From positions 2,728,001-2,792,000 of the forward strand of contig NZ_CP104582.1 of assembly GCF_029814935.1 (NCBI RefSeq): a DNA stretch of 64,000 nt. Reading direction: 5' to 3'. A program made the position numbers and the translations under genes. Source of the DNA: Pseudomonas sp. GD03919 (lineage in GTDB: Bacteria > Pseudomonadota > Gammaproteobacteria > Pseudomonadales > Pseudomonadaceae). The number at the start of each line of letters is the position of its first letter. Within the stretch, counting starts at the first letter, position 1. The notes beneath the pieces are model-generated. The model searched no databases and was not told the DNA's origin. It saw nothing but the letters and a program-made list of their open reading frames with translations. This document shows, one piece after another, positions 16,633 through 53,319 of this stretch.

Positions 16633-17445
16633 TCAACGCTCTGCGCCAAGCTGGCCTCGTTCATCGGAAAAGACGATTTCCACCCGGCGATTTTGCGCCC
16701 GACCACGTGCCGAGGCGTTTTCTGCAACGGGAAAGTCCACGCCGTAGCCAACCACCTCAATACGCTTGGCATCCACACCCAGGTCGACCAGCAGGTCGGC
16801 CACAGCCTGTGCGCGCGCGCGCGACAGTTCGAGATTCTCCGCCGCATCGCCGGTATTGTCGGTGTAACCCTCGATACGCACGCGCCGCTGCGGGTTGATC
16901 TGCAGGAACTGCACGAGCTTGAGCACGGTGCGATTAGCGGCCGGCTGCAGATCGGCGCGACCGGCGTCGAACAACATATCGCCCAGGGTCATCACCAGAC
17001 CACGCTCGGTCTCGCTGGTGGCGAGGCTGACCATCTGCTCTTCCAACCAGCCGTTGTGCTGCTGCACACTGAGCAGTTTGGCTTCACGCAGGGTCAGTTG
17101 CAGACGCTGACGCTCCAGTTCCAGCTTGGCCGCACGCTCCTGGTTGAGGCTGATATCGCTATGTTGACGAGCGATCTCGGCATAGCGCTGACTGAGGTAG
17201 GCGTAATGACGTACATCGTCGCCACTGCCCCAATAACTGGACAGTCGCTCGGCACGCGCCAGGGACTCGCCTGCGCGAATCACATACTTGGGCGCGGCAC
17301 GCAGTACATTAGGATCCTCCTTGACCGACTGGAAGCTGATACGCGCCTCCTCCAGAGCCTGCTCGCTTGCCGGCTGACTGCTGACGCAGCCGCTCAAAAC
17401 GACACCAGCCAGTACCACCGTGCCGAAATGACCGAAAGTCTTCAT
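16633..17445 (-). CDS. OmpA-family lipoprotein with N-terminal DUF4398 region
   Basis: A 270-residue lipoprotein (lipobox LSGC). A DUF4398-like helical region with an AAPKYVIRAGESLARAERL segment and a coiled-coil stretch (LNQERAAKLELERQRLQLTL) precede a C-terminal OmpA domain. That domain carries the peptidoglycan-binding pattern GYTDNTGDAAENLELSRARA and ends with GRAQNRRVEIVF. Anchored in the outer membrane and bound to peptidoglycan, it should stabilise the envelope. The ATG overlaps the stop codon of the upstream DUF4398 gene, so the two are translated together. Confidence 0.88.
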   Translation of the reverse strand: MKTFGHFGTVVLAGVVLSGCVSSQPASEQALEEARISFQSVKEDPNVLRAAPKYVIRAGESLARAERLSSYWGSGDDVRHYAYLSQRYAEIARQHSDISLNQERAAKLELERQRLQLTLREAKLLSVQQHNGWLEEQMVSLATSETERGLVMTLGDMLFDAGRADLQPAANRTVLKLVQFLQINPQRRVRIEGYTDNTGDAAENLELSRARAQAVADLLVDLGVDAKRIEVVGYGVDFPVAENASARGRAQNRRVEIVFSDERGQLGAER

Positions 17446-17804: not shown

Positions 17805-18638
17805 CTACTGAGTGACGTCGCCAACCGGATCAGGCTGCATCTGCTGCGCCTTCCACAGATCCAGATTGCGTTGCAGGAACTGCTCAGGCAGCCCGGCGGC
17901 GACCATTTCTGTCATCTTCCGCGCCAGTTGGCCACGCAGCCAAGGCTCGTTGCACGCCGAATTATGCGACAGGGTAAGGTAGAGGCCTTCGCTGGAAATC
18001 GGCGGATCCAGCACCTCGAGGTCATCATCCATACCCAGCGTTTCAGCGAGTGCCAGGCCAGGATAGCGTTCGTACAGCACATAATCGGTGCGACCGAGCA
18101 GCAACTTCTGGAAGGCCTGAGTCAGGCTCGATACCCCTTCGAGCGTCAGGTTCTGCTTGGCAAAGGTATCGAACTGCTGACCGAAACTGTTGCCCACCAG
18201 CGTATCGCCGGTATGTCCCTGCAGGTCGATCCAGCTGCGATAGGGGAAGGCTTCACCCTTGCGCACCCAGACTACGCTGGGCGTATAGAAGAACGCTGGG
18301 TGCACATAATCCATTTGCTCTAGACGCGGCAGAGTGATGAACGCGCCCGCGATCAGATCGACACGACCGGTACGAACTTCATCCTGCGCGCGTGACCATG
18401 GCCCGGTGTAAATCACGTCGATCACCACACCCAGCTCTTTACCCAAATGCTTGAGCGAATCGGCATTTGCGCCGACCAGTTGCTGCGGGTTCTGCGGATC
18501 ACGCCAGAGATAGGGCGGATACTCGGGGTTACCGGTCGCCACCAGGCGCTCGCATTTACCAGCAGCAAGGGCCGCAGTTGGCATGACGACCAGTGCGCAC
18601 CACAACAACAGCGACTTAAACAGACAACGCTCAGGCAT
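17805..18638 (-). CDS. Periplasmic solute-binding protein (SBP_bac_3 type)
   Basis: A 277-residue protein with a signal peptide ending TAALAAGK. The core has NPEYPPYLWRD, ADSLKHLGKELGVVIDVIY, RTGRVDLIAGAFITLPR and LQGHTGDTLVGNSFGQQFD, the pattern of the amino-acid receptor family. No permease or ATPase is nearby, so it may be an orphan receptor. It ends 10 bp before the DUF4398 gene and may share its transcript. It is only loosely similar to the protein at the left edge. Confidence 0.8.
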   Translation of the reverse strand: MPERCLFKSLLLWCALVVMPTAALAAGKCERLVATGNPEYPPYLWRDPQNPQQLVGANADSLKHLGKELGVVIDVIYTGPWSRAQDEVRTGRVDLIAGAFITLPRLEQMDYVHPAFFYTPSVVWVRKGEAFPYRSWIDLQGHTGDTLVGNSFGQQFDTFAKQNLTLEGVSSLTQAFQKLLLGRTDYVLYERYPGLALAETLGMDDDLEVLDPPISSEGLYLTLSHNSACNEPWLRGQLARKMTEMVAAGLPEQFLQRNLDLWKAQQMQPDPVGDVTQ

Positions 18639-18744
18639 TGGCTACTCTCGGTTCATACGTGGGTCGGCGGGACAGCAGCCCGGAGTCCTGTGTATTCATG
18701 CTAGCTTAATGGCGCCACCGGAATCAGTGCGATAAGGACGCGCC

Positions 18745-19671
18745 ATGAAAAAACTGCTGTTCGCGCTGCTGCTCCTGCTGTCAGGTAGCGCAGCTACGCT
18801 GTATTTCTTTCCTGCGACTCAACTGGCCAGCCTGCGTCTGCTGGAACAGTACCGCGCCGGTCTCGCTCACGAGCAGCTGACTGTCCATAATCTTAACATC
18901 CATTACTACCAGGGAGGGCCGGCAAGCGCTGAAACGCTGGTGCTGCTTCATGGTTTTGCCGCCGACAAGGATAACTGGCTGCGCTTTGCTCGCCACCTGA
19001 CCGCGAACTATCGCGTCATTGCCCTGGATCTGCCAGGCTTCGGCGACAGCGATCTGCCTAGCGGTAGCTACGATACCGGCACTCAGGCCGAACGTCTGGC
19101 GGATATTCTCGACGCCATGGGTATCCAGCAGGCGCACGTGCTGGGTAACTCGATGGGCGGACAAATCGCCGCCCTCTTCGCCGCACGCTACCCGGAACGC
19201 GTCCGCTCGCTGGCGCTGTTCGCCAATGCCGGAATCGACAGCCCGCACAAGAGCGAGCTATATCGCCTGCTCGCTCGTGGCGAGCCCAATCCCCTGGTGA
19301 TCAGGCAGCCGCAGGATTTTGACAAGCTGCTGCACTTCATCTTCGTCGAGCCGCCCTATCTGCCCGAGTCGCTCAAGCGCTATCTGGGTGAGCGCGCCAT
19401 GGCCCGTGCCGGGCATTACGAGACGGTGTTCAAGCAGTTACGGGAACGCGCCATTGCTCTGGAGCCCCAGCTGACAAGAATCCAGGCACCCACCTTACTG
19501 CTGTGGGGCAAACAGGATCGAGTGCTGGACGTATCCAGCATCGAAGTCATGCAACCGTTGCTGCGCCAGCACAGCGTGGTGATCATGGATGACGTTGGTC
19601 ACGCCCCCATGCTTGAACGCCCCGAAGAAAGCGCCCTGCTCTACCGGCGGTTTCTGGAGGGTCTGAAGTGA
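18745..19671 (+). CDS. plaF: Membrane-anchored alpha/beta-hydrolase, PlaF-like lipase/phospholipase
   Basis: A 308-residue alpha/beta hydrolase with an N-terminal hydrophobic anchor (KKLLFALLLLLSGSAATLYF). The oxyanion motif is HGFAADKDNW, the nucleophile elbow GNSMGG, with the acid in WGKQDRVLD and His in DVGHAPML. PlaF (PA2949) of P. aeruginosa is an inner-membrane phospholipase A1 involved in lipid remodelling, and lies close to etfA as here. AAGGA precedes the ATG. In PAO1 a reductase gene (PA2950) separates the two; here only an IS element does. Orthology is inferred from sequence pattern and neighbourhood. Confidence 0.8.
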   Translation: MKKLLFALLLLLSGSAATLYFFPATQLASLRLLEQYRAGLAHEQLTVHNLNIHYYQGGPASAETLVLLHGFAADKDNWLRFARHLTANYRVIALDLPGFGDSDLPSGSYDTGTQAERLADILDAMGIQQAHVLGNSMGGQIAALFAARYPERVRSLALFANAGIDSPHKSELYRLLARGEPNPLVIRQPQDFDKLLHFIFVEPPYLPESLKRYLGERAMARAGHYETVFKQLRERAIALEPQLTRIQAPTLLLWGKQDRVLDVSSIEVMQPLLRQHSVVIMDDVGHAPMLERPEESALLYRRFLEGLK

Positions 19672-19691
19672 CAGCAGGCACACAGGCAACA

Positions 19692-19703
19692 AAAAACCCG
19701 CTC
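19692..19703. terminator. Left arm of a terminator split by the IS element
   Basis: AAAAACCCGCTC here is exactly complementary to GAGCGGGTTTTT at 21321-21332, on the far side of the IS. Together they would make a bidirectional rho-independent terminator between the convergent plaF-like and etfA genes. The two arms are now about 1.6 kb apart. Confidence 0.8.
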
Positions 19704-19747
19704 TGGTCAGACTGTGTGAAAACCTAGCAGTCTGAGTGCAAGGTGAA

Positions 19748-19781
19748 GACAATGCCTCTATCGGTCGATAGGGGCATTGTC
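19748..19781. promoter_or_regulatory. Long hairpin in the IS leader, just before the transposase start
   Basis: GACAATGCCTCTATC and GATAGGGGCATTGTC form a 15-bp stem with one mismatch and a 4-nt loop, ending 4 bp before the transposase ATG. In read-through RNA it would mask the start region, a known way for IS elements to limit transposase made from outside transcription. That role is inferred. Confidence 0.65.
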
Positions 19782-19785
19782 GTTT

Positions 19786-21210
19786 ATGGGCTATATCCAA
19801 GGTGAAGGTCGGCAACAAAGCAGCCTGTTTCCGCCGACATTGGAAGAGCTGGTTCCTGAGGATCATCTAGTTCGAGTCATCGAGGCCTATGTGGCTCGTC
19901 TGGATCTGAAGGTACTGGGGTTCAGCAAGGCTGAGCCGCTCAAGACTGGGCGCCCTGGCTACGATCCAGCTGATTTGCTCAAGCTATACCTATATGGCTA
20001 CTTCCAGCGCATTCGCTCCTCTCGTCGATTGGAGGCGGAGTGCCAGCGCAATATCGAGGTGATGTGGTTGCTGGGTCGTCTGGCGCCGGACTTCAAGACC
20101 ATCGCGGATTTTCGCAAAGACAACAGCATGGCCTTTCAGGCGACTTGCAAGGCTTTCGTCCAGTTCTGTCGCCAGGCGAGCTTGATCAGTGGGGAGCTGG
20201 TGGCCATCGATGGCAGCAAGTTCCAAGCGGTAGCTTCGCTGCGCAAGCACCTGAGCGTGGAGAAGCTCAAGCGTCAACAAGCGAAGCTGGAAAAACACAT
20301 TGCCCAGTACCTGGCCCAGCTTGATGAGGGTGATGCACAAGACGCGCAAGAGACGATTGACCGGGCAGCGGTGAAACAGGCGCTACGCCAGCTACAGGAT
20401 CGCCATGCCGATAACTTGACCGTACAAGCGCTGATGGAGGCGCAGGGCCTGGAACAGTTCGTCGAAGGCGAAGCGGATGCCAAGAAGATGCGCTGCTCAG
20501 GCAAGAGCCCTTGCGTGGCCTACAACGTGCAGAGCGCTGTCGATGCCGAGCATGGCCTGATCGTGCATCACGAAGTGACCAGTGACTGCACCGACAACCA
20601 GCAGTTGGAGCCGATGGCCAAAGCGACTCAGGCGGTTCTGCAGCAGTCTGAGCTGACCGTCACGGCTGATGCAGGTTATTCCAACGGGGCGCAGTTTCAG
20701 GCCTGCGAAGAAGCGGGCATTACGGCTTTCGTCCCCGTGAATCGCGCGCCCAACAACCAGGGCGGCGGCACACTGTTTGCGCGTCAGGACTTCACTTACG
20801 ATCCTGCGACCGACAGTTTCCAATGTCCTGCGGGTAAGACCCTGTCGCTCAAACAGCTCAATCGTGGCACTCGCCTTTACGCAGCCCGTGCCGAGGACTG
20901 CGGGAACTGCCCATTAAAAGCCAAGTGCACACAGGCCCAACGGCGTCATATCAGCCGCCATCCCAACGAAGAGGCGTTCGCGCGGATGGAGAAACGACTC
21001 GAAACTCACCCTGAGATGATGGGACGGCGACGAGCAATCGTCGAGCACCCTTTTGGCAATCTCAAACAATGGATTCTGGGCAACGGTCGTTTTCTAGTGC
21101 GCCATTTCAGCGGGGTGAGAGCTGAGATGGCGATGGCCGTGCAAGCCTACAACCTCAAACGTGCTATTTCGGTACTCGGGGCGCGCCGCATGATCGAGCT
21201 ACTGACCTGA
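19786..21210 (+). CDS. IS1182-family transposase
   Basis: A 474-residue DDE transposase. The N-terminal domain (MGYIQGEGRQQSSLFPPTLE, then GRPGYDPADLLKLYLYGYF) is typical of IS1182/IS1380-like enzymes. Catalytic residues: Asp142 in VAIDGSKF, Asp295 in VTADAGYS and Glu420 in IVEHPFGNLKQW. A Cys cluster (CPAGKTL, CGNCPLKAKC) sits in the C-terminal half and may bind metal. The frame is full length with all three acidic residues, so it should be functional. The upstream TTG at 19777 lies in the leader hairpin; ATG 19786 is preferred. Confidence 0.92.
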   Translation: MGYIQGEGRQQSSLFPPTLEELVPEDHLVRVIEAYVARLDLKVLGFSKAEPLKTGRPGYDPADLLKLYLYGYFQRIRSSRRLEAECQRNIEVMWLLGRLAPDFKTIADFRKDNSMAFQATCKAFVQFCRQASLISGELVAIDGSKFQAVASLRKHLSVEKLKRQQAKLEKHIAQYLAQLDEGDAQDAQETIDRAAVKQALRQLQDRHADNLTVQALMEAQGLEQFVEGEADAKKMRCSGKSPCVAYNVQSAVDAEHGLIVHHEVTSDCTDNQQLEPMAKATQAVLQQSELTVTADAGYSNGAQFQACEEAGITAFVPVNRAPNNQGGGTLFARQDFTYDPATDSFQCPAGKTLSLKQLNRGTRLYAARAEDCGNCPLKAKCTQAQRRHISRHPNEEAFARMEKRLETHPEMMGRRRAIVEHPFGNLKQWILGNGRFLVRHFSGVRAEMAMAVQAYNLKRAISVLGARRMIELLT

Positions 21211-21249
21211 ACGCTGCACTTTGCATCATTGCATCAGTAAAAACACAGA

Positions 21250-21272
21250 CGCCCCGAATCAATCGAGGCGTT
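21250..21272 (+). terminator. Terminator-like hairpin inside the IS, after the transposase
   Basis: ACGCCCCGA and TCGAGGCGT pair around a short AT-rich loop with one mismatch, followed by TTTGT. It lies 40 bp past the transposase stop. Confidence 0.5.
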
Positions 21273-21320
21273 TGTATTGAACCGGTTCAGTTCAGAGCGT
21301 TTTCACACAGCCTGCTGGTG

Positions 21321-21332
21321 AGCGGGTTTTTC
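21321..21332. terminator. Right arm of the split terminator
   Basis: GAGCGGGTTTTT is the complement of the arm at 19692-19703. It lies 17 bp beyond the etfA stop. With the IS between the arms they can hardly pair during transcription, so termination for both convergent genes is probably impaired or taken over by IS sequences. Confidence 0.8.
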
Positions 21333-21348
21333 GTTGCGGGAAAGCGGC

Positions 21349-22278
21349 TTAGACCGACTTTTCCAGCTCCGGTACGGCTTCGAACAGGTCGGCGACCAGA
21401 CCGTAGTCAGCCACCTGGAAGATCGGCGCCTCTTCGTCCTTGTTGATCGCGACGATCACCTTGGAGTCCTTCATGCCGGCCAGGTGCTGGATCGCACCGG
21501 AGATACCGACGGCGATGTACAGCTGCGGCGCAACGATCTTGCCGGTCTGACCGACCTGCATGTCGTTCGGCACGAAACCGGCGTCGACGGCAGCGCGGGA
21601 AGCGCCGACGGCAGCGCCCAGCTTGTCGGCCAGCGCGTACAGGAGCTTGAAGTTGTCGCCATTGCCCATGCCACGGCCGCCGGAAACGACGATCTTGGCA
21701 GCCGTCAGTTCCGGACGATCGGACTTGGCCAGCTCTTCGCCGACGAAGGCGGACTTGCCGGCATCGGCCGGGCCGGAAACGGCTTCAATGGCAGCGCTGC
21801 CGCCTTCGGCAGCAACAGCGTCGAAACCGGTGCTACGCACGGTGATCACCTTGACGGCAGCCGAGGACTGCACGGTGGCGATGGCGTTACCGGCATAGAT
21901 CGGACGCTTGAAGGTGTCGGCGCTTTCAACGGCGATGATCTCGGAGATCTGATCGACGTCCAGGGCAGCAGCGACACGCGGCAGGATGTTCTTGCCGTTG
22001 CTGGTGGCGGCGGCCAGGATGTGGCTGTAGTTCTTGCCCAGTTCGGCTACCAGCGGCGCGACGTTTTCCGGCAACTGGTTGGCATAGGCCGCGTTGTCGG
22101 CAACCAGCACCTTGGCCACGCCAGCGATCTTGGCAGCGGCTTCGGCAGCAGCGCCAGCGTTGGCACCGGCAACCAGAACGTGAATATCGCCACCGATCTT
22201 CTGCGCCGCAGCAACGGTGTTCAGGGTAACGGGCGCCAGGGCGGCATTGGTGTGTTCAGCGATAACCAGGATAGTCAT
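21349..22278 (-). CDS. etfA: Electron transfer flavoprotein alpha subunit
   Basis: A 309-residue FAD-binding ETF alpha subunit. The N-terminal domain begins [20 protein letters not shown]. The C-terminal FAD domain has [30 protein letters not shown] and [20 protein letters not shown], all typical. It accepts electrons from acyl-CoA dehydrogenases (such as AtuD) and passes them to ETF-ubiquinone oxidoreductase. It starts one base after the etfB stop, in the same operon. Confidence 0.96.
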
Positions 22279-23028
22279 TTAGATTACCTTCGCCTCGTTC
22301 TTCAGTTTCTCGACCAGTTCAGCCACGGACTTGACCTTGATGCCGGCGCTGCGAGCAGCCGGTGCTTCGACTTTCAAGGTCTTGACGGTGGAAGCAGTGG
22401 AAACGCCCAGCGCATCAGGGGTAACGGTTTCCAGCGGCTTTTTCTTGGCCTTCATGATGTTCGGCAGCGACGCGTAGCGCGGCTCGTTCAGGCGCAGGTC
22501 AGTGGTGACGATCGCCGGCAGGTTCAGCGCAACGGTCTGCAGACCGCCATCGATCTCACGGGTGACGTTGACCTTGTCGCCAACCACTTCGACCTTGGAG
22601 GCGAAGGTGCCTTGGCCGAAGCCAGTCAGGGCGCCCAGCATCTGGCCGGTCTGGTTGTTATCGCTGTCGATGGCTTGCTTGCCCATGATCACCAGCTGCG
22701 GCTGCTCCTTGTCGACCACAGCCTTGAGCAGCTTGGCCACGGCCAGGGAGTTCAGCTCATCGTTGGACTCGACCAGGATGGCGCGGTCGGCGCCGAGGGC
22801 CAGCGCGGTGCGCAGTTGCTCCTGCGCAGTAGCCGGGCCGATGGTGACGACGACGATCTCGCTCGCCACGCCCTTTTCCTTCAGGCGTACGGCCTCTTCC
22901 ACGGCGATTTCGCAGAAGGGGTTCATGGACATCTTGACGTTGGCGAGGTCGACGCCGCTGTTGTCCGCCTTGACGCGAACCTTGACGTTGTAGTCGACCA
23001 CTCGTTTGACAGCTACAAGAACCTTCAT
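22279..23028 (-). CDS. etfB: Electron transfer flavoprotein beta subunit
   Basis: A 249-residue ETF beta subunit. It begins [20 protein letters not shown] and contains [18 protein letters not shown], the [12 protein letters not shown] segment, [20 protein letters not shown] for AMP binding, and a C-terminal recognition loop that contacts dehydrogenases. The ATG at 23028 is preceded by GAGGAATCC; the longer open frame upstream is intergenic. It diverges from etf-QO across a 323-bp control region. Confidence 0.96.
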
Positions 23029-23143
23029 GGATTCCTCGTTACTCTCCGGTGAATAAGAATGTCGCCAAGGCGAGCCTGGCCGGTGATGCAAAAGCGACCG
23101 CATCCAACCTTTCAGCTCAGACGGCGAGCGCAAAACCGCCCGT

Positions 23144-23172
23144 ATCTTGACCCCGCAGCCTAGCCTGGTCAA
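23144..23172 (-). promoter_or_regulatory. Putative sigma-70 promoter for etfBA
   Basis: On the minus strand TTGACC is followed after 17 bp by CAAGAT. The -35 is good and the -10 weak. It lies about 120 bp upstream of the etfB start. Confidence 0.4.
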
Positions 23173-23232
23173 TACAGCGAACCGGCCGGTCATCTGCGAT
23201 GTAGTAGGATTCTAGCAGGCCTACAGAAAATT

Positions 23233-23246
23233 CAAACAAACGTTTG
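23233..23246. promoter_or_regulatory. PsrA-type operator upstream of etf-QO
   Basis: CAAAC-AAAC-GTTTG matches the PsrA consensus (C/G)AAAC-N2-4-GTTT(G/C). Inside it ACAAACGTTTGT is a 12-bp perfect palindrome. It abuts the -35 of the etf-QO promoter, so a bound repressor would block RNA polymerase. PsrA is a fatty-acid-responsive TetR regulator whose P. aeruginosa targets, as I recall, include the etf genes. Binding here is inferred. Confidence 0.7.
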
Positions 23247-23248
23247 TA

Positions 23249-23277
23249 TTGGCCCGCTGGGAGGGTGTAGATATAAT
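23249..23277 (+). promoter_or_regulatory. Sigma-70 promoter of etf-QO
   Basis: TTGGCC, a 17-bp spacer and a perfect TATAAT. The likely transcription start is about 23284, giving a leader of roughly 68 nt to the GTG at 23352. Confidence 0.6.
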
Positions 23278-23351
23278 GCCCACGCCGTGCTTAGGGAGCG
23301 AGCCGCGCCTCCCCTATAAAACATCGAAGAGCCTTGAGTAGGAGATAGCCT

Positions 23352-25016
<1,665 letters not shown>

Positions 25017-25030
25017 TTCGCGCCAGCATG

Positions 25031-25056
25031 AAAAAGGCTCCCTCGGGAGCCTTTTT
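25031..25056. terminator. Bidirectional rho-independent terminator between etf-QO and the SDR gene
   Basis: AAAAAGGCTCCC and GGGAGCCTTTTT form a perfect stem around TC. A-run and T-run make it work in both directions between convergent genes. Confidence 0.92.
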
Positions 25057-25080
25057 CTATCGAATCACTCCTGAGGGCAT

Positions 25081-25857
25081 TCAGTCCTGATAGATCATCT
25101 TGCGGCTCATGCCGCCATCGATGACGAACTCCTGACCGGTGACGAAACCGGCTGCATCGGAGAGCAGCCAGGCGACCTGGGCCGCCACATCCTCAACCGT
25201 GCCGACACGGCCGACCGGATGCTGCGCATGATCGAACACCGATAGCGGCTCCAGACGCTGCTGCACAGGATCGCGCGCATCGATCCAGCCCGGGCTGACG
25301 CAGTTCACCCGCACCTCCGGCCCGAGACTGACCGCCAGCGCATGAGTGAGCGCAACCAGCCCGCCCTTGCTCGCAGCGTATGCCTCGCAATCGGCTTCGG
25401 ACTGGCTGGCGCGGGTCGAAGCGATGTTGACGATGGCGCCGTGATGTCCACGCAGATAGGGCGCGCAATACTTGGCCAGGAGCATGGCGCCGGTCAGGTT
25501 GACCGCCAGCATGCGATTCCAGCGCTTGAGATCGAGTGACTCCAGTGGCGGCGTATGCGGGTCGGCGATGGCCGCATTGCACACCAGCGCATCGAGACGG
25601 CCAAACTGACCGAGCACCTCGGCGACACCGACACTGACCTGCTCTTCCCTGGCCACATCCATGGCCACGAACCAGGCGTTATCGCCCAGCGCACGCGCCA
25701 CCCTGGAGCCACGATCACGGTCGATGTCGGCCAGCACCACCTGCCAGCCTTCGGTAATCAGCCAGGCACTGATGCCCAGACCAATCCCGCGAGCGGCTCC
25801 GGTGACTAGCGCGACACGCCCGTTGTTGGGCGTGTCAGTCGTCCCCCACTCCAGCAT
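25081..25857 (-). CDS. SDR-family oxidoreductase
   Basis: A 258-residue classical short-chain dehydrogenase: [11 protein letters not shown] near residue 20, [11 protein letters not shown] near 92, NIASTRAS and the catalytic YAASKGGL, then a C-terminus [20 protein letters not shown]. The substrate is unknown. It starts inside the end of metZ (1-base overlap), so it is cotranscribed with metZ, and it matches PA3106 by position. Confidence 0.85.
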
Positions 25858-27068
25858 CAGAGTGCCGCCAGGCCGCGCGCCAGATCCGCCTTGAGGTCTT
25901 CCAGCTCTTCCAGGCCCACGGCCACCCGAATCAGGCTGTCGCTGATGCCGGCATTGGCGCGCTCCTGCGGCGTCAGGCGACCATGAGAGGTGGTCGCCGG
26001 ATGGGCGATGGTGGTCTTGGTATCGCCCAGGTTGGTGGTGATGGAAATGACACGGGTGCCATCGATCACCTTCCAGGCCGCGTCACGCCCACCCTTGACC
26101 TCAAAACTGACCACCGCGCCGAAGGCACTCTGCTGCTTCTTGGCCAGTTCGTGCTGCGGGTGGCTGGGCAAGCCGGCATAGTACACACGCTCGACCTGCG
26201 GCTGTTGCTCCAACCACAACGCCAGCTGCCGCGCACTCTCGCTCTGCGCCTGCATGCGGATACGCAGGGTTTCCAGCCCCTTGACGAACAGCCAGGCGTT
26301 GAACGGGCTCAGGGTTGGCCCGGCGGTACGCAGGAAACCGACCACCTCCTTCATCTGCTCGCTACGACCGGCCACCACACCGCCCAGACCACGGCCCTGG
26401 CCATCGATGTACTTGGTTGCCGAATGCATGACGATGTCGGCGCCGAGCTTCAACGGTTGCTGCAGCGCCGGCGTGCAGAAGCAGTTGTCTACCGCCAGCA
26501 GCGCGCCGCGGGCATGGGCAATATCGGCCAGCGCGGCGATATCCACCAGCTCGGCCAACGGATTGGATGGCGACTCGACGAACAACAGTTTGGTATTGGC
26601 CTTGAAGGCGCCCTGCCAGGCGTCCAGGTCGGCCAGCGGCACGTAATCCACCTCGATGCCGAAACGCTTGAGGTACTTCTCGAACAGGCTGATGGTGGAG
26701 CCGAATACGCTACGCGAGACCAGCACATGGTCGCCGCCGCTGCACAGGCTCATGACGATGGCGAGGATCGCCGACATGCCGGAAGCGGTCGCCACTGCCT
26801 GCTCGGCCCCCTCCAACGCCGCGATGCGCTCCTCGAAGGTGCGCACGGTAGGATTGGTGTAGCGCGAATAGACGTTGCCCGGCATTTCACCAGCAAAGCG
26901 TGCCGCCGCATCGGCTGCGGTGCGGAATACATAGCTGGAGGTCAGGTACAAGGCCTCGCCATGCTCGCCCTCTGGCGAACGGCGCTGCCCGGCACGCACC
27001 GCCAGGGTGTCGAAGCCGGCACCGTCCAGATCGCTATCCAGGCGCCCCGCTTCCCATTCCAGTGTCAT
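25857..27068 (-). CDS. metZ: O-succinylhomoserine sulfhydrylase
   Basis: A 403-residue Cys/Met metabolism PLP enzyme. It makes homocysteine from O-succinylhomoserine and sulfide, the direct sulfhydrylation route of pseudomonads. Motifs: [38 protein letters not shown] and [16 protein letters not shown], which holds the PLP-binding Lys, plus the closing [13 protein letters not shown]. It follows purF in the same direction after 73 bp and overlaps the SDR gene. Confidence 0.93.
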
Positions 27069-27141
27069 CGTAAATCCTCATCCAGAAAACAGGCCGGGCC
27101 ACTAGGGCCCGGACCTCAATCGATCACGCAGCGTGTGCCGC

Positions 27142-28650
27142 TCAGTTATTGTGCAAATCAATAATCGCACTGACAGCCTGCGACTTCGCCTTGCTGGCGT
27201 CGTTGCGTGCCTGCTCGATACGGTTCAGGTAGGCCTCGTCGACATCGCCGGTGACGTACTTGCCGTCGAAAACCGCGCAGTCGAAGTTGTCGATCTTGAT
27301 CTTCTTGCTGCCGCTGACCGCCTCGATCAAATCCGGCAGATCCTGATAGACCAGCCAGTCGGCGCCAATCAGCTCGCAAACCTCTTCGGTACTGCGCCCA
27401 TGGGCAATCAGCTCGTGGGCGCTGGGCATGTCGATACCGTAGACGTTCGGGTAACGCACCGCTGGTGCTGCCGAGCAGAAGTAGACATTCTTCGCGCCGG
27501 CTTCGCGCGCCATCTGAATGATCTGCTTGCAGGTGGTGCCACGCACGATGGAGTCATCCACCAGCATCACGTTCTTGCCGCGAAACTCCAGCTCGATGGC
27601 ATTGAGCTTCTGCCGCACGGATTTCTTGCGCGCCGCCTGCCCAGGCATGATGAAGGTACGGCCGATGTAGCGGTTCTTGACGAAGCCTTCACGGAATTTC
27701 ACGCCCAAGCGGTTGGCCAGCTCCAAAGCGGCCGTACGGCTGGTATCGGGAATCGGAATGACCACGTCGATGTCGTGGTCCGGACGCTCACGCAGAATCT
27801 TGTCGGCCAGTTTCTCCCCCATGCGCAGGCGCGCCTTGTACACCGAGATACCATCCATGATCGAATCGGGGCGCGCCAGGTAAACGTGTTCGAAAATGCA
27901 CGGCGCATACTTGGCATTGGTCGCGCACTGGCGGGTGAACAGTTGACCTTCCTCGGTGATATACACCGCTTCGCCCGGCGCCAGGTCGCGGATCAGGGTG
28001 AAACCCAGCACGTCCAGCGAGACGCTTTCCGAGGCAATCATGTATTCCACGCCTTCGTCGGTGTGACGCTGGCCGAAGACGATCGGACGGATGCCGTTGG
28101 GGTCGCGGAAGCCGACGATGCCATAGCCGGTGATCATCGCCACCACCGCGTAGCCGCCCAGGCAGCGCTCGTGCACGTGGGTGACAGCGGCGAACACGTC
28201 TTCTTCGCTGGGCTGGAGCTTGCCGCGCTGAGCCAGCTCGTGGGCGAACACGTTGAGCAGTACTTCCGAGTCGGAATTGGTGTTCACGTGGCGCAGGTCG
28301 GACTCGTAGATCTCCTTGGCCAACTGCTCGACGTTGGTAAGGTTACCGTTGTGCGCCAGGGTGATGCCGTACGGCGAGTTGACGTAGAACGGCTGCGCCT
28401 CGGCCGAGCTGGAACTGCCAGCGGTCGGGTAGCGCACGTGGCCGATACCCATATGGCCGACCAGACGCTGCATATGGCGCTGCTGGAACACGTCACGCAC
28501 CAGGCCATTATCCTTGCGCAGGAACAGGCGGCCATCATGGCTGGTGACAATACCGGCAGCGTCCTGGCCGCGATGCTGAAGGACGGTGAGCGCGTCATAC
28601 AGCGCCTGATTGACGTTCGACTTGCCGACGATACCGACGATGCCACACAT
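27142..28650 (-). CDS. purF: Amidophosphoribosyltransferase
   Basis: A 502-residue class II glutamine amidotransferase/PRTase that makes phosphoribosylamine, the first step of purine synthesis. It starts [20 protein letters not shown]; removal of Met exposes the catalytic Cys. The glutaminase part has [12 protein letters not shown] and NSDSEV; the PRPP loop is [16 protein letters not shown]. The ATG at 28650 is required to place Cys second. It lies directly after cvpA, the usual cvpA-purF arrangement. Confidence 0.96.
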
Positions 28651-42600: not shown

Positions 42601-42671
42601 GCAAGCGCCAAGCCACACGCCGCAAGCAAAGACCGAGCGGCCCGGCTTGTGGCTTGCAGCTTGCCGCTCGG
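42601..42671. repeat. Imperfect inverted repeat before the LysR gene
   Basis: GCAAGC...AAGCCACA pairs with TGTGGCTTG...GCTTGC, and CCGAGCGG with CCGCTCGG. It is related to the repeat at 40250-40309 and ends just before the LysR ribosome binding site. Confidence 0.5.
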
Positions 42672-42680
42672 AGCTGTTTT

Positions 42681-43562
42681 ATGGATCTCGCCAACCTCAA
42701 CGCTTTTATCGCCATTGCCGAAACCGGCAGTTTTTCTGAAGCCGGCGAGCGCCTGCACCTGACCCAACCTGCCGTGAGCAAACGCATCGCCGGTCTGGAG
42801 CAGCAATTGGGCGTGCGCCTGTTCGACCGCCTCGGCCGCGAAATCGGCCTGACCCAGGCTGGCCGCGCGCTGCTGCCACGCGCCTACCAGATCCTCAACG
42901 TGTTGGACGACACCCGCCGCGCCCTGACCAACCTGTCCGGCGAGGTCAGCGGCCGCCTGACACTCGCCACCAGCCACCATATCGGCCTGCATCGCCTGCC
43001 TGCCCTGTTGCGCGCCTTCACCCGGGCACATCCGCAAGTGGCGCTGGATATCCAGTTTCTCGATTCGGAAGTGGCCTACGAAGAAGTCCTGCATGGCCGC
43101 GCCGAACTGGCGGTGATCACCCTCGCCCCGGAAACCCGCGAGCCGATTCGCGCCGTCGCAGTGTGGAACGATCCACTGGATTTCGTCGCCGCCCCCGAAC
43201 ACCCACTGGCGCGCAGCCAGGTGATCAGCATGGCCGATGTGGCGCAGCACCCGGCGGTGTTTCCCGGCGGCAACACCTTCACCCATCACATCGTGCAGCG
43301 TCTGTTCGAGGCCCAGGGGCTGACCCCCAACATCGCCATGAGTACCAACTACCTGGAAACCATCAAGATGATGGTGTCCATCGGCCTGGCCTGGAGTGTA
43401 CTGCCGCGCACCATGCTCGACGATCAGGTCGCGCGCCTGCCGATACCCGGCATTCAGTTGACCCGCCAATTAGGCTACATCCTGCATACCGAGCGCACCC
43501 TATCGAATGCCGCGCGGGCATTCATGGATCTGCTCGATAGCCAGCGCGATGATCTTGCATAG
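42681..43562 (+). CDS. LysR-family transcriptional regulator
   Basis: A 293-residue LysR regulator. The HTH is FIAIAETGSFSEAGERLHLT then QPAVSKRIAGLEQQLGVRLF. The effector domain has LTLATSHHIGLHRLPALL and ends with a typical hinge. It diverges from leuCDB and matches PA3122 by position, so it may control leucine synthesis in place of LeuO/LeuB-type regulators; this is inferred. GGAG precedes the ATG. Confidence 0.88.
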   Translation: MDLANLNAFIAIAETGSFSEAGERLHLTQPAVSKRIAGLEQQLGVRLFDRLGREIGLTQAGRALLPRAYQILNVLDDTRRALTNLSGEVSGRLTLATSHHIGLHRLPALLRAFTRAHPQVALDIQFLDSEVAYEEVLHGRAELAVITLAPETREPIRAVAVWNDPLDFVAAPEHPLARSQVISMADVAQHPAVFPGGNTFTHHIVQRLFEAQGLTPNIAMSTNYLETIKMMVSIGLAWSVLPRTMLDDQVARLPIPGIQLTRQLGYILHTERTLSNAARAFMDLLDSQRDDLA

Positions 43563-43658: not shown

Positions 43659-46600
43659 ATGGCCATGGCCAGATCGACTGACCAGACCCCGCCCCTGCCG
43701 CATATACCGGCGATGGATCCCGTCGAATTCGAACAAACCTGGCAAGATGCACCGCGTTTGCTGGCGGCCCTCAATAGCGCAAAACTCGGCACCTGGTATT
43801 GGGACATTGGCACTGGCCAGGTCAACTGGTCACGTGGCGCCCAGGCATTGTTCGGCCTGGACCCCAGCCGCCCCGTCAGCCAACCGCTGAACTACTTCGA
43901 GCTGATTCCGGAAGAAGAGCGCCCGGCGATCCTGGCGAATTTCAATGCCATCATCAGGGGCGAACAGATTTTCGATGCCCTGCGTCACCGCATCCGCTGG
44001 CCCGATGGCAGCCTGCACTGGCTGGAAATCACCGGCAGCCTGCAATACGAGGCCGACGGGCGGCCGCGCATGTTCGGTGTCATCCGCGACATCAGCGCCC
44101 AGCAGGAACGCGCCGCAGCCTTGCGCGCTTCGGAAGAACGTTTCGCCAGCCTGTTCCGCTTGAGCCCCGACATCATGATGCTGGTGCGCTACGACAACAG
44201 CGAAATCGTCGAGGTCAATCAGCACTTCACCCAGGCCTTTGGCTGGGCTGCCAGCGAGATCATCGGCCGCGCCACCCACGAACTGAATATCTGGGTACAC
44301 GCCAGCCAGCGCGATCAGTTGCGCCAGCAAGCGCCGCTGAGCCGCGAGCCGGTGATTCAGGAAGTACAACTGCGCACCCGCGCTGGCGATATTCTCGACG
44401 GTGTACTGTCGAGCCAGTACATCGAACTGCAGGGCGAGCGCCTGATGCTCTGCACCTTCCTCGATACCAGCGAACGCAAGCGCGCAGAAAACGCCCTGCG
44501 CGCCAGTGAGGAAAAGTTCGCCAAGGCCTTCATGCATACGCCCGACGCGGTGGCCATCACTGACCGGGCGACCGGCCGCTTCATCGAGGTCAACCCGAGT
44601 TTCGAGCAGCAATTTGGCTGGAGCAGCGCTGAGGCCGTGGGCCGCACCTCACTGGAGCTGGGTATCTGGGCTGACCCCAGCGACCGCCAGCGTATGCTCG
44701 ACGCCGTGCAGACTGGGCGCCTGAACAACCTGGAGGTAAGGCTGTTCAGCCGCGACGGCGAGGTCACCACTAACCTCTTGTTCGGTGGCGAGATCGAGCT
44801 GAATGGTACGACCTGCCTGGTACTCACGGTGCGCAACATCACCGAGCAACGCGCCCAGGAGCTCGCGCTCCACGAAAGCCGGCAACACCTCAAACTGGCG
44901 CTGGAATCCGCCGACATGGGAACCTGGGACTGGCACATTCCCGACAACCGACTGTATGCCAGCACCCGCGCCGCGCAGTTGCATGGTTTGCCAAGCCAAC
45001 CGTTCGAAGGTGCCTTCTTCGACTTCTTTCGTCAGGTGCCGCTGGAAGATCGGTACAGCCTGCGCCAGAGCTACCTGCGCCTGATCGAAGAGCAGCGCAG
45101 CTACTATCAGATCACCTATCGTGTGCAGCCTGCAACTGGCGGCCTGCGCTTTCTCGAAAGCACCGCCAAACTGCAGCTCGACGATACCGGCCAACCGCTG
45201 CGCATGGTCGGAACGCTGGTCGATATCAGCGAGCGTGTTCTGCGCGAACAACGCCTGCAGGCATCGGAAGAGCGATTTGCCAAGGCGTTCCACTCCAGCC
45301 CGGACGCCATCACCATCACCGAGCGTGGCAGCGGCCGCTATATCGAGGTCAACGAAGGCTTCACCCGCATCACCGGTTATCAGCCAGAGGAAGTGATCGG
45401 TCGTACGGCCTTCGATCTGAACATCTGGGCTTACCCCGAAGAACGCCGGCAGATGATCGAGCGCCTGAGCCAGAACGGCCAGGTGCTGCACATGGAAATG
45501 CACGGCCGCCACCGCGAAGGCGAGATTCGCCTGGTCGACGTGTCCGTCCAGCCGATCGAAATCAATGGCCTGCCCTGCCTGCTGCTGACGGCGCGTGACA
45601 TCAGCGAACTGAAAGCAGCCCAGGCCCAGGCTCAGCACCTGGCCTACCATGATGCCCTGACCAACCTGCCCAACCGCGCCCTGCTGATGGACCGCCTGAC
45701 CCAGCAGATCGCCCTGCTCAAGCGCCATGATCTGCGCGGCGCGTTGCTGTTTCTCGACCTCGACCACTTCAAGCACATCAATGACTCGCTCGGCCATCCC
45801 GTTGGCGATTCCGTGCTGCGCATGGTCACGGCGCGACTGGAAGCCAGCGTTCGCCTGGAAGATACCGTGGCACGCCTGGGCGGTGACGAATTCGTGGTGC
45901 TGCTTTCCGGTCTCGAGGGCAAGCGCTCGGAGGTCACTCGCTACGTTCGTCAGGTCGCGGAAAAACTGCGTCATTTATTGGCCGAACCGATGCTGCTGGA
46001 TGGTCACCGCCTGCAGGTCACCCCCAGTATCGGTATCGCCCTGCTCCCCGATCACGGCAATACCCCGGCGGATCTGCTCAAACGTGCCGACATCGCCCTT
46101 TACCGCGCCAAGGATTCCGGGCGCAATGCCATCCAGCTGTTTCGCAGCACCATGCAGGAAGCCGCCAGCGCCCGCCTGCGCCTGGAGAACGATCTGCGCC
46201 TGGCTCTGGCGCGGGGCGAATTCGAGCTGCACTTCCAGCCCCAGGTCGACGCCCGTGACGGCAAGGTGGTCGGCGCCGAAGCCCTGCTGCGCTGGCAGCA
46301 TCCGCAACTGGGGCCGCAGTCGCCGGCGCAATTCATTCAGGTGCTGGAAGAAAGCGGGCTGATCGTCGAAGTCGGCGGCTGGGTACTGGCCGAAGCCTGC
46401 CACTTCTGTTCCCGCCTGCTGGCTGACGGCCTGGTCGATGGCGAGCGCTTCAGCCTGTGCGTCAACATCAGCCCCCGGCAGTTCCGCCAGCACGATTTCG
46501 TCGAACGGGTCGCCAGCAGCCTGCGCGACAGCCAGCTGCCCAACGCCATGCTCAAGCTGGAAATCACCGAGGGCATCGTCATTCAGAACATCGACGACAC

Positions 46601-46952
46601 CGTCGGCAAGATGCTGCGCCTGAAGAAGCATGGCGTCAGTTTTGCCATGGATGACTTCGGCACCGGCTACAGCTCACTGACTTATCTCAAGCGCCTACCG
46701 GTGGACATGCTGAAGATCGACCAATCGTTCGTACGTGACGCCACCAACGACCCCAACGATGCCGAGATCATCCGCGCCATCGTTGCCATGGCGCGTAGCC
46801 TGGGCCTGGCGCTGATCGCCGAGGGCGTGGAACAGCAAGACCAACTGCACTTCCTGGAGGTCCAGGGTTGTCACCTCTATCAGGGCTACCTGTTCAGCAG
46901 GCCCCTAGCGCAGGAAGCCTTTCGCGCCCTGCTGGACCGCGCAGCCGACTGA
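43659..46952 (+). CDS. Multi-PAS diguanylate cyclase/phosphodiesterase (PAS-GGDEF-EAL)
   Basis: A 1097-residue soluble signalling protein with no clear transmembrane segment. About five PAS domains fill residues 30-640 (repeats of ERFAKAFHSSPDAITITERG and related lines). GGDEF is intact at 741-745, with an RLED I-site five residues upstream (732-735). The EAL domain is intact: EAL 874-876, LEITEG, DDFGTGYSSL, KIDQSF and EGVE. It could make and break c-di-GMP; many such proteins act mainly as phosphodiesterases. AGAGGAAGGT precedes the ATG. It is monocistronic by layout. Confidence 0.93.
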   Translation: MAMARSTDQTPPLPHIPAMDPVEFEQTWQDAPRLLAALNSAKLGTWYWDIGTGQVNWSRGAQALFGLDPSRPVSQPLNYFELIPEEERPAILANFNAIIRGEQIFDALRHRIRWPDGSLHWLEITGSLQYEADGRPRMFGVIRDISAQQERAAALRASEERFASLFRLSPDIMMLVRYDNSEIVEVNQHFTQAFGWAASEIIGRATHELNIWVHASQRDQLRQQAPLSREPVIQEVQLRTRAGDILDGVLSSQYIELQGERLMLCTFLDTSERKRAENALRASEEKFAKAFMHTPDAVAITDRATGRFIEVNPSFEQQFGWSSAEAVGRTSLELGIWADPSDRQRMLDAVQTGRLNNLEVRLFSRDGEVTTNLLFGGEIELNGTTCLVLTVRNITEQRAQELALHESRQHLKLALESADMGTWDWHIPDNRLYASTRAAQLHGLPSQPFEGAFFDFFRQVPLEDRYSLRQSYLRLIEEQRSYYQITYRVQPATGGLRFLESTAKLQLDDTGQPLRMVGTLVDISERVLREQRLQASEERFAKAFHSSPDAITITERGSGRYIEVNEGFTRITGYQPEEVIGRTAFDLNIWAYPEERRQMIERLSQNGQVLHMEMHGRHREGEIRLVDVSVQPIEINGLPCLLLTARDISELKAAQAQAQHLAYHDALTNLPNRALLMDRLTQQIALLKRHDLRGALLFLDLDHFKHINDSLGHPVGDSVLRMVTARLEASVRLEDTVARLGGDEFVVLLSGLEGKRSEVTRYVRQVAEKLRHLLAEPMLLDGHRLQVTPSIGIALLPDHGNTPADLLKRADIALYRAKDSGRNAIQLFRSTMQEAASARLRLENDLRLALARGEFELHFQPQVDARDGKVVGAEALLRWQHPQLGPQSPAQFIQVLEESGLIVEVGGWVLAEACHFCSRLLADGLVDGERFSLCVNISPRQFRQHDFVERVASSLRDSQLPNAMLKLEITEGIVIQNIDDTVGKMLRLKKHGVSFAMDDFGTGYSSLTYLKRLPVDMLKIDQSFVRDATNDPNDAEIIRAIVAMARSLGLALIAEGVEQQDQLHFLEVQGCHLYQGYLFSRPLAQEAFRALLDRAAD

Positions 46953-47002: not shown

Positions 47003-48079
47003 TCAATGCAGGCGCTTGCGGCACATCAACTGCGCCAGTTTGGTACTGTCCGGCCGTTCGACAATGCCTTTCTCGGTCACGATGTAGTCCACCAGATCAG
47101 CAGGCGTCACATCGAACAGCGGATTGACTGCTGGCACATCAGCTGCCACGCGATGCCCGGCCACCTCCAGCAACTCAAGACCATCACGCTCTTCGAGGCG
47201 CATGTCCTCAGCGTCTTCCAGGCTCATGTCGATGCTCGAACTCGGTGCCACGACCATCATCCGCACCCCATGGTGCATGGCGTTGACCGCCAACTGATAG
47301 GTGCCGATCGTGTTGACGACATCGCCATTGGCGGCAATGCACTCAGCACCCACGACCACCCAGGTGATGCCCTTGGTTTTCATCAGATGAGCAGCCGCGG
47401 CATCGACATTGAGGCTGACCGGCACACCATCGCCCGCCAGCTCCCAGGCCGTGAGGCGGGCACCGTGCAGCTCGGGACGGGTTTCATCGACATAAACATG
47501 TTCGAGCAAATCATCCAGATACGCTGCGCGAATCACACCAAGCGCCGTACCGAAGCCGCCGGTCGTCAGCGCGCCGGCATTGCCGTGCGTCAGCAACACC
47601 TGCGGGTTGCCCTGATGTTTGCGGATCAGCTCCATGCCCAGTTGCGCCATGGTCAGATTGGCCTCGCGATCGCTCAGGTGAATGCCGACTGCCTCGGCCT
47701 CCAGCAGCGCCAGCATGTCATCGCCATCCTTGAGCCGCATCAGGCGCTCACGCATACGCTGCAAAGCCCAGGACAGGTTGACGGCCATGGGCCGCGCTTG
47801 CGCTAGACGGGCAAAATCGGCCTCCAGCGCCTCACGCCAGTCACCACCGAGCGCCAGCCGGGCCCGAGCCCCCAGTACCAGAGCGTAAGCCGCCGCGATG
47901 CCGATAGCCGGGGCCCCACGCACCACCCTATCGCCAATCGCGTCCGCCACCTCGGCAGCCGTCTCGAAACGCAGCCAGGTTTGCCGATGCGGCAGCAGGC
48001 GCTGATCGAGCGCGTACAGCGCGCCCTCGCGCCACTCGATGGCCTGAACCCTCTCCACCGCCAGCAATTGCTCGCGCAT
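47003..48079 (-). CDS. mtnA: Methylthioribose-1-phosphate isomerase homologue with altered active site
   Basis: A 358-residue MtnA/eIF2B-fold protein. The family pattern is clear ([75 protein letters not shown]). But the catalytic Cys of THCN is Gly166 ([10 protein letters not shown]), and the catalytic Asp of GADR is Glu246 followed by Cys247 ([11 protein letters not shown]). NKIGT has become NTIGT. The spacing of 80 residues equals that of Cys160 and Asp240 in B. subtilis MtnA. The frame is otherwise complete. It diverges from the MTA deaminase gene, so it is placed for methionine salvage; its activity is doubtful. ATG 48079 follows GGAGTGCGCG. Confidence 0.88.
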
Positions 48080-48237: not shown

Positions 48238-49596
48238 ATGCCCGACGCCCCTCTCGACCTGTTGCTGCTGCCCACCTGGCTGGTGCCCGTGGAGCCTGCC
48301 GGGGTCGTATTGCGCGAGCATGGTCTGGGCATACGCGATGGCCACATCAGCCTGATCGCCCCCCGCGCCGAAGCACTGCGCCACCCGGCAACGCAGGTTT
48401 TAGAGTTGCCGCAATGCCTGCTTGCACCGGGGTTGATCAACGCCCATGGCCACGCCGCCATGAGCCTGTTTCGCGGCATCGCCGACGATCTGCCGCTGAT
48501 GACCTGGCTGCACGAACACATCTGGCCTGCCGAAGGCAAATGGGTCGACGAGAATTTCGTCCGCAGCGGCACCGAACTGGCCATCGCCGAACAGATCAAG
48601 AGCGGCATCAGTTGCTTCTCCGACATGTACTTCTACCCGCACACCGCAGCCGAGTGCGTGCATGCGGCTGGCATGCGCGCACAGATCACCGTGCCGGTGC
48701 TGGACTTTCCGGTACCCGGCGCACTCAATGCGGCCGAGGCGCTGCGCAAGGGGTTGCAGCTGTTCGACGACCTCAAGCAACACCCGCGCATCCGCATCGC
48801 CTTCGGCCCGCACGCCCCCTATACAGTCAGCGACGACAAGCTCGAGCAGATTCGCGTACTGGCCGACGAGCTGGATGCCGGCATTCATATGCACGTTCAC
48901 GAAACCGCCGAGGAAGTGGCCGACGCTGTCGCCAAGCACGGTGAACGCCCGCTGGCCCGCCTGGCCCGCCTTGGCCTGCTCGGCCCGCGCTTTCAGGCCG
49001 TGCATATGACGCAGATCGATGATGCTGATCTGGCGCTGTTGGTCGAACACAACTGCAGCGTGATTCATTGCCCCGAGTCCAACCTCAAGCTGGCCAGCGG
49101 CTTCTGCCCGGTCGAACGTCTGTGGCAGGCGGGTGTCAATATCGCCATCGGCACGGACGGCGCGGCCAGCAACAACGATCTCGACCTGCTCGGCGAAACC
49201 CGCACCGCCGCCTTGCTGGCCAAGGCCGTCGCCGGCTCTGCCACGGCCCTCAACGCACACAGCGCCTTGCGCATGGCGACCCTCAATGGTGCCCGCGCCC
49301 TGGGCCTGGAGGCGCAGACCGGTTCGCTGGAGCCGGGCAAACTGGCCGACCTGGTTGTCTTCGACCTGTCCGGGCTGGCCCAGCAACCGATCTACGATCC
49401 GGTCTCGCAACTGATCTATGCCAGCAGCCGCGACTGCGTGAAGCATCTGTGGGTGGGCGGCAAACAATTGCTCGCTGACGGTCACCTGACGCGCATGGAC
49501 GAACAGGCGCTGATCGCCAAGGCCAGGGAATGGGGAGCCAGGATTGCGCATAGGTCGCCGGAGCCACCTGAGAACAATGCCCACGGTCTACGCTGA
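48238..49596 (+). CDS. mtaD: 5'-Methylthioadenosine/S-adenosylhomocysteine deaminase (TRZ/ATZ family)
   Basis: A 452-residue amidohydrolase. Metal ligands His70 and His72 lie in [16 protein letters not shown] and FQAVHMTQ add further His residues, and [14 protein letters not shown] the Asp. In P. aeruginosa the homologue (PA3170) deaminates MTA to methylthioinosine, feeding the phosphorylase and then MtnA. It diverges from mtnA and is followed by ubiG. The call rests on motifs and context; other amidohydrolase substrates remain possible. Confidence 0.88.
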
Positions 49597-53173: not shown

Positions 53174-53319
53174 TAATGTCTGTCAGTTAAGCGTCGACGC
53201 TGCCAATGGGTAGGAGCGGCGCCCCGCCGCGAACCAGGGCGATACGCGATTGAAAAGCTTCGCCCCGGGGCGGGGCTCCTACGAAAGACCGCTTTGGCAA
53301 GCTTATCTGATCGGCATTG
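53174..53319. mobile_element. 146-bp IS4-like MITE inserted in the rluB terminator
   Basis: The ends TAATGTCTGTCAGTTAAGC (53174-53192) and GCTTATCTGATCGGCATTG (53301-53319) are imperfect inverted repeats, about 14 of the inner 18 bp alike. They resemble the IS4 end, which I recall as starting TAATGCCGATCAGTTAAG. A 10-bp direct repeat flanks it, and IS4-family elements duplicate about 10-13 bp. It has no coding capacity. Inside lies a REP-like pair, 53210-53282. Confidence 0.75.
53210..53282. repeat. REP-like pair (GTAGGAGCGGC type) inside the MITE
   Basis: GTAGGAGCGGCGCCCCGCCG on the left and CGGGGCGGGGCTCCTAC on the right are inverted copies separated by about 30 bp. It is carried inside the 146-bp element. 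Confidence 0.65.

Follow-up and report, generated by a model that had tools for sequence, protein, structure and literature searches.

The methylthioribose-1-phosphate isomerase MtnA of Bacillus subtilis carries Cys160 and Asp240, which we take to be its catalytic pair. The MtnA substrate, methylthioribose 1-phosphate (MTR-1-P), is produced by methylthioinosine phosphorylase (MTIP) from methylthioinosine (MTI), the product of methylthioadenosine (MTA) deaminase. Ribose-1,5-bisphosphate isomerase (R15Pi) has the same fold, and PMC5789824 reports that mutation of either of its catalytic residues abolishes isomerisation. In eIF2B-alpha, the position of the Cys is occupied by Ala in human and by Gly in S. 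pombe (PMC5789824), and sugar phosphates sit in its old active site, according to PMC8187479. A pseudoenzyme is defined, in PMC10211241, as a protein in which the conserved catalytic motif of its family is missing by sequence. Here we describe an mtnA homologue in a 64,000-nucleotide stretch of the genome of Pseudomonas sp. GD03919 (contig NZ_CP104582.1, positions 2,728,001 to 2,792,000; this whole stretch is called the window). Its product has lost both catalytic residues and, judging from sequence comparison, probably is an MtnA-derived pseudoenzyme.

The mtnA homologue and its active site

The gene and the motifs that set it apart are the following:

47003 to 48079, minus strand: mtnA homologue of 358 amino acids, proposed pseudoenzyme without the catalytic Cys and Asp (translation, PF01008, TIGR00512)
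47579 to 47590, minus strand: THGN motif, residues 164 to 167, in which Gly166 (codon 47582 to 47584) replaces the catalytic Cys, Cys160 of B. subtilis (reading frame and alignment)
47339 to 47350, minus strand: GAEC motif, residues 244 to 247, in which Glu246 replaces Asp240 and Cys247 replaces Arg241 (translation and alignment)
47300 to 47314, minus strand: NTIGT motif, residues 256 to 260, in which Thr257 replaces Lys251 (translation and alignment)
47006 to 47023, minus strand: CRKRLH C-terminal tail (comparison of Pseudomonas MtnA rows)

The reading frame has no internal stops, and its product matches the NCBIfam MtnA equivalog model TIGR00512 over the full length with 387.5 bits (cut-off 279). 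The window protein has the fold of MtnA, and the residues of an MtnA isomerase are missing from it at both catalytic positions, which hold Gly166 and Glu246. Residue equivalences are taken from the alignment of the window protein to B. subtilis MtnA (PDB 2yrf), in which Asn256 is aligned to an unchanged Asn250 and the 80-residue distance between the two catalytic positions is preserved. The altered motifs, the spacing and the intact frame had been proposed by an earlier sequence-only reading of the window, and they are borne out by the translation and by this alignment. That reading also suggested looking for a second mtnA. A search of the whole window genome (G000; 4,658,387 bases) finds no second PF01008 match, and compensation for the loss by another mtnA or IF-2B family gene is thus ruled out.

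The same three motif changes are present in the sister genome G012 (97.8% identical) and in P. mendocina EF27 (98.3%), which rules out a sequencing error. Four canonical neighbours, 86-87% identical, carry THCN/GADR/NKIGT. Alignment with related Pseudomonas, another check that had been suggested, thus places the changes in a clade and finds related losses in other species. Within the P. mendocina group, PSB00032 has THGN/GAER/SKIGT and P818 has THGN/GADR/NTVGT, and P. bharatica, elsewhere on the tree, has THNS/GADC/SRIGT.

Loss of the catalytic cysteine and of MTIP

The mtnA gene was extracted and read from 199 Pseudomonas genomes. It is found in all 199, and the frame is full length and free of stops in 198, the exception being G085. 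MTIP is found in 108 of the genomes and not in the other 91, as judged by a model that, in 10 of 14 control genomes, picks up relatives as well. Both Cys and Asp are retained in 106 of the 108 genomes with MTIP versus 16 of the 91 without it; the Cys is gone in 75 MTIP-less genomes and in one that has MTIP. Fisher's test of Cys against MTIP gives p 2.6e-37, with relatedness ignored and G085, scored as undetermined for catalytic residues, left out. The loss of MTIP is the main correlate of the loss of the Cys, a relation that was not visible from the window alone. The loss of both Cys and Asp in the window protein is the extreme of this wider pattern: among 80 Cys-less rows (76 from the 199 genomes and four from named genomes), position 246 is Asp in 70 and Glu in 10. 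In G105, which was entered as having MTIP, the MTIP gene (G105:C142:48906-50875) is split and contains stops while the MtnA motifs are canonical; possibly, MTIP was lost there very recently.

MtnB is found in 79 of the 199 genomes, every one of which has MTIP, Cys and Asp. Among the 29 genomes with MTIP and without MtnB, 27 (including G177, G063, G064 and G078) retain both residues, so that the loss of the Cys tracks the loss of MTIP and not that of MtnB; methylthioribulose 1-phosphate (MTRu-1-P) may have another fate in such genomes. MtnK as an alternative source of MTR-1-P is ruled out, with no match over the cut-off in any of the 199 genomes and weak partial matches in six. In the window genome MtnB, MtnC and MtnK all lack a match over the cut-off, and the MTIP model has no match at E 0.001, MtnP's own model and the MtnN models lying outside the search. 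Judged by the MTIP and MtnK models, the window genome thus has no source of MTR-1-P (MTIP/MtnP or MtnK). MtnD (PF03079) is uninformative as a pathway marker, since all 27 genomes searched exceed the Pfam cut-off, 24 of them only by partial matches of 29-64 bits. MTA deaminase is found in 183 of the 199 genomes; the 16 without it are a P. putida-group clade of 14 genomes together with G052 and G080. As the clade of 14 retains MtnA, MTA deaminase is ruled out as an obligate partner of the pseudoenzyme.

A tree was made from 208 MtnA proteins with the motif columns excluded. The catalytic Cys has changed on it at least 13 times, or has been lost 15 times if the loss is irreversible, the replacement being mostly Gly. 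If EF27 is taken as ancestrally MTIP-less, 14 of the 15 losses fall on branches with exclusively MTIP-less descendants. These branches account for 0.368 of the Cys-bearing tree length, which gives a rough binomial P of 8e-6. Two of the losses are deep. One comprises 27 genomes, with P. putida, P. soli, P. mosselii, P. entomophila and P. monteilii as named close relatives, and the other comprises 31 genomes, with P. fluorescens, P. synxantha, P. lactis and P. costantinii. The named proteins checked from these species are Cys-less, yet they are annotated at source as methylthioribose-1-phosphate isomerase. The Cys is retained in 49 of the best 120 matches to a P. fluorescens-group query and in 15 of 110 new matches to a P. 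putida-group query. Many proteins of the two groups thus bear the name of a salvage enzyme without the residue for its chemistry, so that the MtnA step is likely wrong in pathway reconstructions of these model bacteria.

The former place of MTIP can be located in the window genome, where the MTIP flanks are 20 bp apart (1,545,245/1,545,266); at this place the MTIP-bearing stretch measures about 900 bases. In G012, PSB00032, P818 and P. yangonensis the site is closed in a similar way, the flanks being separated by 18 to 113 bases. A comparison of the MTIP stretch with the window genome gives 34 matches, of which two are the MTIP flanks and the remainder mostly a dispersed repeat of about 113 bp. 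One copy of this repeat lies in the window at 53175-53287, and a further copy is found just downstream of MTIP in EF27.

Selection on the Cys-less proteins and its interpretation

The ratio of nonsynonymous to synonymous substitution rates (dN/dS, omega) was estimated as one omega per set (GY+F3X4, IQ-TREE fast search). It is 0.048 in the Cys-less clade of 27 P. putida-group genomes, 0.058 in that of 31 P. fluorescens-group genomes and 0.026 in 48 canonical relatives; within the P. mendocina group it is 0.094 for five Cys-less versus 0.040 for five canonical proteins. For mtnA of G000, G012 and EF27 it is 0.137, with a log likelihood of -1577.1 versus -1594.1 at an omega of 1; comparison genes in the same three genomes give 0.072 (MTA deaminase), 0.109 (mupP) and 0.005 (ubiG). 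An omega of 1 fits far worse in every set tested. Compared with canonical relatives, the Cys-less sets are under a weaker constraint, of about half to a third of the strictness, that is nevertheless clearly present. The strongest case for a maintained Cys-less MtnA is the P. putida-group clade of 14 genomes without MTIP, MTA deaminase, MtnB and MtnK, where dN/dS is 0.035.

The pattern of conservation can be followed along the protein. Canonical proteins have 138 sites with a conservation of at least 99%, and 95 of these are still conserved to at least 95% in the Cys-less proteins, in which the most relaxed sites are C166, N256, V100 and R247. Among the 80 Cys-less rows, codon 166 specifies Gly, Ser, Ala or Asn and never Arg, Tyr, Phe or Trp. 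Of 124 Cys-bearing rows, 118 have the CRKRLH tail, as do 75 of the 80 Cys-less rows, which encode it in 48 codon versions; a reading of 19 non-Pseudomonas loci did not reveal it.

The catalytic motif of the family is thus missing by sequence from the window protein, and the protein is maintained by selection, as an omega of 0.137 in its lineage fits far better than 1. Since purifying selection continues without catalytic residues or the known substrate supply, a second role that needs a folded protein is the most economical account. The best reading of these sequence comparisons is that Pseudomonas MtnA would have a second, non-isomerase role, and that copies freed from catalysis would persist as pseudoenzymes. 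The chances are about even that this second function predates the split of the genus and that loss of MTIP repeatedly releases the enzyme into a dedicated pseudoenzyme. The sequence-only reading had held that the changes are not random decay, which the dN/dS values and the clade-wide retention support, and among the options it offered the pseudoenzyme is the best supported.

By combining these observations it is possible to propose an order of events. In the window lineage the downstream salvage genes would have been lost first, followed by MTIP. With MTIP gone, MTR-1-P would no longer be produced by the MTIP route, and the active site of the isomerase would be free to change. The pre-existing second role of MtnA would need the folded protein and not isomerisation, so that the fold and the CRKRLH tail may have stayed under selection as the active-site residues changed. 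By analogy with eIF2B-alpha, this role would most likely be that of a scaffold or a ligand-binding regulator.

Several observations weigh against a maintained pseudoenzyme released by the loss of MTIP. G133 (88% complete) has MTIP together with a Cys-less MtnA, and in G085, which also has MTIP, the MtnA frame ends after 240 amino acids, about 150 bases before the contig end. Of the 16 MTIP-less genomes that retain Cys and Asp, eight have fully canonical motifs. PF03079 (acireductone dioxygenase) has a partial match of 43.4 bits in the window genome, over the Pfam cut-off of 27. The dN/dS of 0.137 in the window lineage exceeds that of canonical MtnA and is roughly double the value for the MTA deaminase next to it, which indicates partial relaxation. 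In P. yangonensis, a member of the same group as the window genome, mtnA (L083 8001-9079) has THGN plus a frameshift; a similar database protein, P0049, is intact. The independent-pairs comparison of Cys with MTIP comprises ten supported pairs; the averages are 4.8 that go the expected way, none that go the opposite way and 5.2 that show no difference. With a median p of 0.06 it is underpowered and not significant alone. The tree is based on MtnA itself and has several weak branches, and any mtnA exchange among species would make the loss counts less sharp.

A further point of this kind is EF27, in which MTIP is present beside a Cys-less MtnA. On EF27 contig C6 (L318/L319), MTIP lies in a tract of about 10 kb, at about 18-28 kb, which is 96-100% identical to G078. 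G078 is the closer relative in all ten one-kb windows from 18,001 to 28,000, and G000 is closer in 26 of the 29 windows before 17,001 and after 28,000 (20 of the 29 at 95% identity or more); the window at 17,001 is ambiguous between the two. As the contig itself is a mosaic, contamination as the source of this combination is ruled out. The G078-like tract inside G000-like flanks means that MTIP returned to EF27 by recombination, and the exception within the window's own group is therefore explained.

The main rival explanation is a new or rewired enzyme, in which the pocket catalyses another reaction, possibly via a recurrent Cys at 247 or 38. Both large Cys-less clades have C38, G166 and C247 at or close to fixation, residues that canonical proteins seldom carry, and Asp246 is retained in 57 of the 58 rows of these clades. 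Tyr or Phe38 has become Cys in 73 of 80 Cys-less versus 9 of 106 canonical MTIP-bearing rows, with 21 changes on the tree. A site rewired around Cys247 had been one of the options of the sequence-only reading; the gain of this residue does recur, with six changes on the tree, but Arg247 is still present in 16 of the 80 Cys-less rows, and four rows (G181, G076, G092 and G195) have a Cys neither at 38 nor at 247. The window protein retains Phe38 (codon 47966-47968) and has lost the Asp as well. A single transition suffices for Tyr to Cys as well as for Arg to Cys, so that mutation bias may contribute. The link between Cys38 and loss of the catalytic Cys is not significant on independent pairs (on average five with, one against and four without difference), and neither is that of Cys247, both comparisons being underpowered. 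The predicted local distance difference test score (pLDDT) of the 247-258 loop is below 50 in the model of the window protein versus 91-92 in a canonical model with the same 66 sequences, a weak comparison because the canonical control is worse in the 171-180 block (60 versus 84). Taken together, another reaction in the pocket appears rather unlikely. That the window protein still isomerises MTR-1-P, with other residues doing the chemistry, is very improbable: the score above the equivalog cut-off and the retained fold would agree with it, but without MTIP, MtnK or MtnB over the cut-off neither a source nor a use of the substrate is visible, and R15Pi stops working when either residue is mutated (PMC5789824).

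Slow decay would mean that mtnA has been functionless since the loss of MTIP and is merely unbroken so far in the window lineage. The raised dN/dS of that lineage and the P. yangonensis frameshift are in its favor, as are pairwise values of 0.08-0.14 for P. mendocina-group Cys-less proteins and their canonical relatives, compared with 0.03-0.09 among canonical ones. It is opposed by the far worse fit of an omega of 1 in each Cys-less set tested, by the 198 full-length frames, by the low ratios at which the clades of 27 and 31 genomes retain mtnA, and by the confinement of the Cys replacements to four residues. Decay is thus an unlikely account of the window gene; it is a serious rival for the window lineage only and unlikely for the large clades. 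Constraint could also act on the DNA rather than on the protein, for example through expression of gyrA, which follows mtnA in 28 of the 31 loci compared. Such an effect is hardly credible, as synonymous sites vary and amino acids do not, and as mtnA lies away from gyrA in the window lineage, where omega is still well below 1. A pseudoenzyme kept for a second role of MtnA accordingly is the reading that we prefer.

Neighboring genes and known systems

The genes around mtnA in the window are the following:

48238 to 49596, plus strand: MTA deaminase, divergent neighbor of mtnA (model match to NF006549, 734.7 bits, cut-off 540)
43659 to 46952, plus strand: PAS-GGDEF-EAL type gene at the usual place of gyrA (context; domain name read from the sequence)
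42654 to 43562: LysR-type gene, likewise at the usual place of gyrA (context)

The divergent orientation of mtnA and the MTA deaminase gene, which had been noticed earlier, is confirmed. G012 and EF27 have the same rearrangement, with the PAS-GGDEF-EAL and LysR-type genes in place of gyrA.

Human MRI1/MRDI (mediator of Rho-dependent invasion; 4ldq) is a possible case of a second role in the family; it is presumably an active isomerase with a eukaryotic signalling role, in which it would differ from the window protein. Compared with MtnA proper (EC 5.3.1.23; B. subtilis 2yrf/2yvk), the window protein differs at the equivalents of Cys160, Asp240, Arg241 and Lys251, and its genome is without MTIP, MtnK or MtnB over the cut-off. 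It does not belong to the R15Pi family either, as it scores 146.5 bits against the TIGR00511 cut-off of 314.1 and is without the Cys/Asp pair. Among the literature matches listed, from a search that left subscription literature mostly outside, no title or start of an abstract reports the loss of catalytic residues in Pseudomonas MtnA.

The separate losses constitute a natural experiment on which parts of an enzyme are kept by selection once its reaction is gone, and they allow a possible hidden second function to be probed directly by deleting mtnA in common laboratory strains. A close likeness is to eIF2B-alpha, whose fold was once that of a sugar-phosphate isomerase and which, lacking the catalytic Cys, is kept for regulation. 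The eukaryotic protein is a subunit of a multi-subunit complex, whereas Pseudomonas MtnA is encoded by a stand-alone bacterial gene with many separate losses. The superfamily gave rise to the regulatory core of eIF2B, and Pseudomonas may show the same transition caught repeatedly in bacteria. If so, these proteins would be a bacterial counterpart of the passage from a sugar-phosphate isomerase to a regulatory subunit of eIF2B.
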